61,753 bases of DNA, from assembly GCA_023664365.1 (NCBI GenBank), contig JAMPFR010000016.1, positions 1 through 61,753 on the forward strand, written 5' to 3'. The notes beneath the pieces are model-generated. The model ran no database searches. It saw nothing but the letters and a program-made list of their open reading frames with translations, and had not been told where the DNA came from. The stretch comes from Acetatifactor muris (lineage in GTDB: Bacteria; Bacillota; Clostridia; Lachnospirales; Lachnospiraceae). The translations under genes and the position numbers were made by a program. Positions 31,247-32,189 of the stretch are shown here, piece by piece. The first letter of the stretch is position 1. Each line of letters begins with the position of its first letter.

Positions 31247-31430
31247 GGCGGGGCTCCGCACAGCGGGACGCAGCAACGGGACGGCGGGCAGGGAAGCCTC
31301 CTCGGAGCACACGCCGCGCAGGACGTTCAGATGAGCCTCAGACGATGCAATGCGGGTTGCGTCCCCGCATCGCATGAGTCTCATCTTCGCTGCGCTCTAA
31401 GTGTGTTCCGAGGAGGCTTCCCTGCCCGCC
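31247..31430. repeat. Long palindromic element, copy A
   Basis: The outer arms of about 30 nt (31283-31312 and 31401-31430; GGCGGGCAGGGAAGCCTCC with GGAGGCTTCCCTGCCCGCC) pair with one G-T. They enclose an inner imperfect hairpin (GATGAGCCTCAGACGATGC with GCATCGCATGAGTCTCATC). A 5' extension (31247-31269) is shared with copy B, which lies in inverted orientation at 32015-32189. Compared with copy B, the element has a 13-nt duplication at 31270-31282. Open reading frames running through it look like artefacts of the palindrome. Confidence 0.85.
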
Positions 31431-31535
31431 TGATTGCAGCACATAGCCGATTTTTTGGGGGCAAGTGACGCAGTTCGGAGCAGATATCACGAAAAATTTT
31501 ATACAAGGTGCCAGATTCAACGGTTGAAAAAAGTG

Positions 31536-31564
31536 TTGACGGAAGTGCTGATAAGTGATAGTGT
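31536..31564 (+). promoter_or_regulatory. Promoter of a convergent antisense RNA
   Basis: TTGACG (31536-31541) and TAGTGT (31559-31564) with a 17-nt spacer, pointing at the 3' end of the 54-aa membrane-peptide gene. Confidence 0.5.
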
Positions 31565-31570
31565 ATTTTA

Positions 31571-31661
31571 TAAGAAAAGGTGTTACCGTGAAGCAACGGT
31601 TCGCCTCGTTAAGTGTAAATCAAAAAAGCAACCTAACTTTGGTCGGTGCGGTTGCTTTTTT
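31571..31661 (+). ncRNA. Candidate antisense RNA to the 54-aa peptide gene
   Basis: About 90 nt between the promoter at 31536-31564 and the terminator at 31621-31661. It carries a 5' hairpin-forming motif GGTGTTACC...GGTTCGCC. It overlaps the 3' end of the peptide mRNA, including the last codons. No ribosome site with a convincing reading frame is seen. The layout resembles 3'-overlapping type I antitoxins. Confidence 0.45.
31621..31661. terminator. Bidirectional terminator shared by peptide gene and antisense RNA
   Basis: AAAAAAGCAACC and GGTTGCTTTTTT form a 12-bp stem around 17 nt, with an A run on one side and a T run on the other, so it can end transcription from either strand. The peptide's last codons (from about Gln46) lie within the stem-loop. 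Confidence 0.8.
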
Positions 31662-31797
31662 GATGCTTGTTATTTCTTCCGGTCTGCCGGATACTGATAA
31701 TTGTGACGATGATGCTGATAACCGTCACTACAATACCGACAAGCTCCAGAATGATTCCGAACACCAAATAGTGCTTACCTTTCGCTCTATTTTCCAT
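31633..31797 (-). CDS. 54-aa membrane peptide, possible type I toxin
   Basis: Starts MENRAKGKHYLVFG, has a long hydrophobic helix (about residues 10-37, rich in Ile and Val) and a polar, basic C-terminus ending in QKSNRTDQS. AGGAGGG lies 9 nt upstream of the ATG and a TTGCAA/TAAAAT promoter (31892-31919) precedes it. The leader contains hairpin-forming words. A bidirectional terminator overlaps its last codons and an antisense promoter faces it. Small size, single span, basic tail and antisense layout fit a type I toxin. I do not recognise it as a member of the Fst, TxpA, BsrG or Ldr families. The gene is framed by two inverted palindromic elements. Confidence 0.6.
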   Translation of the reverse strand: MENRAKGKHYLVFGIILELVGIVVTVISIIVTIISIRQTGRNNKHQKSNRTDQS

Positions 31798-31891
31798 ATG
31801 TACGATCCCTCCTATCGGTACTGGAAGCTCTCAAAATGTACTCATTTTGGCAAAAGGCGAACCGCTACCCGTTTTGGTAACACCCATGTAT

Positions 31892-31919
31892 ATTTTATCA
31901 TACTTGCGGGATTTTGCAA
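31892..31919 (-). promoter_or_regulatory. Promoter of the 54-aa peptide gene
   Basis: On the minus strand TTGCAA (31919-31914) and TAAAAT (31897-31892) with a 16-nt spacer. The leader would be about 90 nt and contains GGTGTTACC...GGTTCGCC and a CAAAATG/CATTTTG inverted repeat just before the ribosome site. Confidence 0.5.
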
Positions 31920-32014
31920 GAAGTATCGGATAATTTACGGTGATTTTTGTGAAATTGCAGCGAACCTGCGGCAAGTGACGCCGCCCGAAACAAGCAAATA
32001 CCTACTCAAGAACA

Positions 32015-32189
32015 GGCGGGCAGGGAAAAGCCCCCTTGGAGAACACTTAGAGCGCAGCGAAGATGAGACTCATGCGATGCGGGGACGCAACCCGCATTGC
32101 ATCGTCTGAGGCTCATCTGAGCGTCTTGCGCGGCGTGTGCTCAAAGGGGGCTTTTCCCTGCCCGCCGTCCCGCTGTGCGGAGCCCCGCC
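32015..32189. repeat. Long palindromic element, copy B (inverted)
   Basis: Inverted copy of the element at 31247-31430. The arms (32015-32046 and 32135-32166) keep the ends GGCGGGCAGGGAA and TTCCCTGCCCGCC, but the middle of the stem is changed on both sides (AAAGCCCCCTT opposite AAGGGGGCTTT, against AAGCCTCCTCGG opposite CCGAGGAGGCTT in copy A). The inner hairpin is almost identical. The right flank GTCCCGCTGTGCGGAGCCCC is shared. Confidence 0.85.

Follow-up and report, generated by a model that had tools for sequence, protein, structure and literature searches.

The window, by which we mean the whole stretch of DNA analysed (61,753 nt of Acetatifactor muris, contig JAMPFR010000016.1 of assembly GCA_023664365.1, from a genome of 3.86 Mb), carries a small peptide gene on the minus strand (31797–31633) and a gene for a ~91-nt RNA on the plus strand (31574–31664), and the two converge on one bidirectional intrinsic terminator (31619–31664). 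The terminator arms (31619–31633 and 31650–31664) are 15 nt long and perfectly complementary, and the loop is kept as CTAACTTTGG-like on the plus strand in alignment A2. The last codons and the stop codon of the peptide gene lie within the terminator, whose minus strand encodes the peptide tail HQKSNRTDQS. A first-pass annotation had described this shared terminator, and a 54-residue peptide with a strong ribosome site; both were found as described, the ORF starting with ATG and having AGGAGGG ahead of it.

Read from its sequence, the 54-residue peptide has a long hydrophobic stretch and a basic tail that is partly terminator-encoded. A leader ORF, MENRAKGKHY, continues in frame into the putative toxin core, LVFGIILELVGIVVTVISIIVTIISIRQT plus the basic tail, and the predicted product would be a small hydrophobic membrane peptide with a charged tail, as a type I toxin should be. 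No family of Pfam or NCBIfam was reached at cut-off by the window peptide, in agreement with the first-pass remark that it resembles no familiar toxin family. No Fst- or Ldr-named family was listed for it in these scans, and there was no match to Hol_Tox (PF16935), a family of putative holin-like toxins, at the Pfam cut-off of 23.3. TxpA- or BsrG-named families were likewise not listed for the window peptide or the peptides of its relatives, a result of the Pfam and NCBIfam scans as opposed to a direct comparison with the described toxins. NF047374, a Clostridioides difficile type I toxin model with a cut-off of 60, was not listed for the window peptide in the NCBIfam scan, and the toxin of one relative scored 18.4 bits with it, below the cut-off.

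The predicted toxin mRNA would start from a promoter at 31892–31919 on the minus strand (TTGCAA-16-TAAAAT, with an extended −10), which the promoter scan found with 9/12 matches and a TG before the −10 site; similar sites stand in relatives. Three hairpins follow in the leader, which is strongly conserved: hairpin 1 (31856–31884), having the same arms as the antitoxin RNA; hairpin 2 (31832–31849, CAAAATG-AGTA-CATTTTG); and hairpin 3 (31800–31821, GTACCGAT-(AGGAGGG)-ATCGTAC), which holds the Shine–Dalgarno sequence in its loop. Hairpin 2 is shortened on both sides together in two relatives (L129 and L072). Stem variants of hairpin 3 in relatives mostly keep pairing, the exceptions being two inner pairs that 2 to 3 of 20 fail to form; an upstream CTTCC could also pair with its Shine–Dalgarno sequence.

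On the plus strand, a promoter at 31536–31564 (TTGACG-17 nt-TAGTGT) precedes the antitoxin-like RNA, which consists of a 5′ hairpin (31578–31606, arms GGTGTTACC and GGTTCGCC), a linker and the terminator. Its predicted folding energy is −34.8 kcal/mol, compared with −18.55 kcal/mol for shuffles (z −5.1). The start sites of both transcripts are placed by inference from the sequence. The terminator half of the RNA is a perfect antisense match to the final ~45 nt of the toxin mRNA, stop codon included, so that it has the features of a type I antitoxin, a putative antisense RNA with its own promoter and complementary to the toxin mRNA. No Rfam family reached its gathering score in the window. A permissive Rfam search gave OrzO-P at 26.1 bits, against a gathering score of 60, and this weak candidate was rejected.

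Conservation was assessed in a set of 61 genomes, 37 of the same genus (that of the window included) and 24 of the same order. The DNA of the RNA gene was matched in 13/61, all of the same genus, and the peptide in 18/61 at an E value of 0.1 or better, the weakest of these matches being probably chance. In genomes that match both well, the two are convergent and overlapping. Searching GTDB contigs with a 24-nt RNA signature gave 83 matching stretches, of which 80 were read. Lachnospiraceae or its genera are named in 66 of 80 stretch titles, among them Acetatifactor, Blautia, Roseburia, Eisenbergiella and Lachnoclostridium, which we take to be genera of this family; the other 14 titles name other groups (for example Muribaculaceae and Gastranaerophilales) or nothing specific, and some may be mislabelled bins. 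Together with the window and two further copies in its own genome, the signature loci gave 90 RNA instances. The first-pass annotation had proposed a profile search for the peptide; a home-made profile matched the strand opposite the RNA in 88 of the 90, in some via the terminator-encoded tail only, and the full peptide core was present and convergent in 71. In full-core rows with a single copy, the profile match ends 52–87 nt from the RNA signature. Six loci (L132, L123, L092, L144, L076 and L122) have two or three RNA copies each, and in L132 three RNA copies with peptide genes are spaced at 424 bp.

The peptide core is under purifying selection, with an omega of 0.23 over 62 distinct cores of 26 codons, compared in pairs that are not independent. 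Third codon positions of these 62 cores hold 20.5 of the 36.3 bits of entropy, a share reached in none of 10000 permutations. The first-pass annotation had named relatives that keep the RNA structure and lose the peptide frame as evidence against its reading. The frame is kept in 71/90 instances, and stand-alone RNA copies also exist. The recurrence of the layout in these 71 instances, together with the purifying selection, indicates a conserved, putative type I toxin–antitoxin-like family, in line with the first-pass classification of the locus.

Among the 71 full-core loci, 63 have a recognisable leader start (8 do not). In 51 of these 63 a short leader ORF (e.g. MENKVKGKHYWCSE) is separate from the toxin, and in 36 of the 51 two-ORF loci the leader UGA and the toxin AUG overlap exactly as AUGA. 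The two ORFs are fused in frame in the remaining 12/63, the window included. In the window and in the copy of the peptide gene elsewhere in its genome (C136), the internal ATG has been lost and the ORFs are fused, which would fit selection to keep the toxin translated. There are counter-cases of both kinds: five two-ORF loci also have no such ATG, the one start on offer being a TTG that lies 16 nt ahead of where the leader stop ends, and L092 and other fused loci retain the internal ATG. Fusion after ATG loss is therefore no rule, and the leader-ORF arrangement is not universal. The overlap points to a possible control step.

A covariance model of the RNA (R1) gave the window RNA 105.5 bits, the window being part of the model's alignment, in which covariation is modest (3 of 26 pairs changed on both sides). 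R1 matched 67/299 genomes of the family at E 0.001, 11/295 genomes of the order at 1e-5, two of them outside the family, and 2/299 genomes of the phylum, both within the family; weak matches may include mere terminators. We read 61 R1 hits from 59 regions, a selection made mostly by score and not exhaustive. A convergent hydrophobic ORF, ending 35–135 nt from the RNA start, was found in 49 of them; the other strand gave 16 and shuffled sequence 13.2. A stricter cut-off lowered the three figures to 27, 2 and 1.25. A ribosome site and an ATG were also present in 21/61. The peptides at these distant loci differ widely, and at several, judged by eye, the A-run of the terminator encodes a Lys-Lys end. 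One recurrent group of the type M[ST]D[FY]E... with a Lys end stands beside the same RNA type (L160, L169, L191, L192, L199, L203 and L204); the three members scanned (L160, L169 and L192) reached no Pfam or NCBIfam family at cut-off. Type I toxins, which are short and variable, easily escape annotation. Here the RNA is the conserved part, its model leading to quite different small peptides across the family, so that toxins can be sought through their antitoxin.

The toxin mRNA and the antitoxin RNA both begin with the arms GGTGTTACC and GGTTCGCC, identical in sense. At three variable arm positions the two RNAs agree with each other (Fisher p 0.004, 9e-6 and 0.003; 27 distinct main-family rows, relatedness ignored). 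Across 21 diverse pairs, cognate 5′ ends had a sense identity of 18.95, whereas shuffled pairings gave 12.31 (sd 0.68), none of 20000 being as high. Since 12 of these pairs had been taken because their leader start was visible by eye, a choice that favours identity, the fair test is that on 47 distant loci, which had not been selected for sharing a leader. These are what remained of the 61 R1 hits after removal of 12 that have no convergent hydrophobic ORF and 2 for which the sequence did not suffice. Here the sense z of cognate against non-cognate pairs was 9.9 for the a-arm and 9.5 for the loop with the b-arm, compared with −0.4 and 0.5 for two promoter stretches and 1.5 for the linker. In the antisense orientation the arms gave z values of 3.0 and 3.3, the two promoter stretches 2.2 and 2.9, and the linker −0.4. 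The effect ends near the hairpin borders, which speaks against a long tract having simply been converted. When loci were ranked singly, the cognate partner came first in 5/61 and among the top three in 16/61, where ~3 were expected, less cleanly because the arms are alike between loci too. By these comparisons the two RNAs keep the same hairpin, its arms changing together locus by locus.

Complementarity between the RNA and the toxin leader does not exceed that to shuffled leaders (mean z −0.17 over 59 loci), so no antisense contact beyond the 3′ overlap is supported. Since the arms are self-complementary, their identity also permits a swapped duplex. Restricted arm tests gave p values of 0.06–0.50; of two positive controls, the RNA's own hairpin was detected (0.001) and that of the mRNA was not (0.12), so that the test is underpowered. 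Over whole 5′ ends, cognate duplexes were slightly stronger (p 0.045), and within one genome the cognate was better at 9 of 17 loci, worse at 7 and tied at 1 (p 0.088). We regard it as a tentative proposal, with the odds somewhat against it, that the two RNAs recognise each other, or one common partner, via their same-sense co-evolving 5′ hairpins, a candidate mode of RNA recognition. If the RNAs are each other's partners, they might form a strand-swapped hairpin heterodimer, in which arm a of each RNA pairs with arm b of its partner, and this could act as a code by which paralogous toxin loci within a cell tell self from non-self; if the partner is a protein, it would be a regulator handling both RNAs of the toxin–antitoxin pair.

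Taken as a whole, the locus is probably a chromosomal type I toxin–antitoxin locus of a new family, with toxicity and neutralisation as predicted properties. Chance convergence of an intrinsic terminator, promoter-like sites and an accidental ORF might be suspected, because the scans alone are near chance: the promoter scan gave 6 sites in 2.5 kb, with 1.9 (sd 1.4) expected, the terminator scan 4 against 2.9, and the facing promoter, although present in the sequence, falls under the scan's threshold. Both promoters are lifted above chance by their conservation in relatives. A TTGAYN, 16–18 nt, TAnnnn pattern precedes 87/90 RNA instances and a −10-like TATGATARAAT variant 49 of 57 readable toxin leaders, both being loose patterns counted without a shuffled control. 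With conservation over many loci, coding selection and RNA structure also against it, chance convergence is extremely improbable. A more serious competitor is that the RNA is mainly a trans-acting regulator, which also occurs alone, and that the peptide is a harmless membrane protein sharing the terminator by chance. Its support comes from the 19 RNA instances that are without a full peptide core, including two in the window's own genome (C119 and C110), where the RNA unit (window 31519–31668) recurs without the peptide, and from the reach of R1 to loci with quite different peptides. The 19 shrink to 12, however, once four cut by contig ends (L097, L113, L119 and L135), two diverged copies (L122) and one with another small hydrophobic peptide (L112) are set aside, and some of the 12 hold toxin remnants. 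The differing peptides are, moreover, still small, hydrophobic and terminator-overlapping more often than in controls. We therefore consider a trans-acting regulator beside a harmless peptide rather unlikely, and RNA copies without peptide would equally be expected if the antitoxin can be kept without harm. The converse also occurs: the peptide unit (31653–31920) recurs at C136 without RNA or terminator (L002 1501–1768; G000:C136:20005–20272), where the peptide gene and leader are 93% identical and the ORF continues into a different C-terminus. This counts against a toxin–antitoxin pair: with no adjoining RNA, the unguarded peptide copy would have to be tolerated, silent or restrained in trans. 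Promoter-only stretches were also seen in the same genome at C148 and C120. Copies of the RNA promoter without the RNA body (L007 1501–1546 and L008 1501–1544) are 89% identical over ~45 nt, and the conserved spacer in them may be regulator-binding.

The first-pass annotation had further suggested that the palindromes framing the locus, with everything between them, form one mobile small-toxin cassette. Long palindromes do lie at 31247–31432 and 32013–32189, as inverted copies of each other (86% identical) with strong predicted folding (z −11.4 for 31283–31430 and −9.6 for 32015–32162), and the locus is an insertion here, to judge from its relatives. Its flanking genes encode an aminoacyl-tRNA editing domain protein (PF04073) and an electron transfer flavoprotein alpha subunit (PF01012, PF00766). 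Of 11 relatives' regions compared, 7 show both genes, and 4 have no second gene, partly because sequence is missing. Measured from where the upstream tRNA-editing gene starts to where the etfA match ends, the distance is 139–298 nt in five relatives and 1187 nt in the window. In two further relatives, however, it is about as long (1057 and 1134 nt), with other sequence in between. In these two (L175 and L177), the ~1.1 kb of other sequence looks, by eye, like a TspO-like gene. No target-site duplication was seen by eye. These palindromes were matched in one of the 61 genomes, at this locus only, and in none of the 60 others; the other RNA and peptide-gene copies in the same genome are without them, and the module is met in further genomes without them. 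The palindromes are thus not part of the system, and the palindrome-framed cassette is very unlikely, less likely than the trans-acting regulator. Allowing up to 1 mismatch, the 13-nt motif at the palindrome ends is dispersed through the genome, with 13 matches forward and 21 reverse, compared with 8 and 4 for its reversed control. No blastn match of window 31500–31930 was found in phages or plasmids, and no match of the 24-nt RNA signature in IMG/VR, so these searches do not point to an addiction role on mobile elements.

For the preferred reading, a chromosomal toxin–antitoxin pair, we propose the following sequence of events. A structured mRNA, with its ribosome site in a leader hairpin loop, would give rise to a small membrane toxin. 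In most relatives the leader ORF would be translated first and the ribosome handed to the toxin via the AUGA overlap, a putative coupling that the fusion of leader ORF and toxin would replace in the window. The convergent ~91-nt RNA, if transcribed as predicted, would be the antitoxin. Pairing may begin at the terminator loop, extend through the terminal ~45 nt of the toxin mRNA and result in decay or a block of translation, as in TxpA/RatA.

The layout was originally likened to both par and TxpA/RatA, and the second likeness is the one that stands. As in TxpA/RatA and BsrG/SR4 of Bacillus subtilis, in so far as the available part of PMC4147584 describes them, convergent transcripts would overlap at their 3′ ends and one would encode a small peptide, a toxic one in those systems. 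According to the same part of that source, pairing there leads to decay or refolding, and in TxpA/RatA the antisense RNA has no contact with the translation start; the 3′ overlap predicted here likewise stays clear of the translation start. Unlike in those systems, the overlap is ~45 nt, compared with ~75 and ~120 nt, and there are a leader ORF, with AUGA overlap in relatives, and a shared 5′ hairpin. The par locus of pAD1 (RNA I/RNA II, Fst), as far as it is covered in the part of PMC7472228 available, is similar in its convergent promoters, one bidirectional terminator and leader stem–loop at the ribosome site. The terminator loops here may also be YUNR-compatible (UUAG on the toxin side, CUAA in the RNA, assigned by eye for a short motif that is common by chance). 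In par, however, the 5′ repeats make both RNAs complementary, as stated in that part of the source, whereas the 5′ arms here are identical in sense; the terminator overlaps the coding region and no Fst-like family was hit by the peptide, so the par half of the original comparison is not supported.

Among full-text papers, in the matches listed, none was found on loci of this kind in Lachnospiraceae; SymE-like toxins reported from Lachnospiraceae prophages differ from the present locus, to judge from the part of PMC11318856 at hand. With the type I toxins of C. difficile and their RCd antitoxins the locus appears to share a hydrophobic peptide, a basic tail and a convergent antisense RNA (PMC7699646 and PMC6563280, in the excerpts available), and it differs in that NF047374 is not listed for the window peptide and stays below its threshold of 60 for a relative's toxin. 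Hol_Tox includes the peptide of one distant locus (L221, 24.5 bits at a cut-off of 23.3), whose RNA match is weak (35.8 bits), and does not include the window peptide. In hok/mok/sok, a leader ORF precedes the toxin and toxin translation needs it, according to the part of PMC4147584 that deals with it. A leader ORF likewise stands before the toxin here, known from ORF overlap alone: it is fused to the toxin in the window and overlaps the toxin start as AUGA in the 36 two-ORF relatives. Unlike in hok/mok/sok, the predicted antisense RNA would meet the 3′ end of the toxin message and not its leader.
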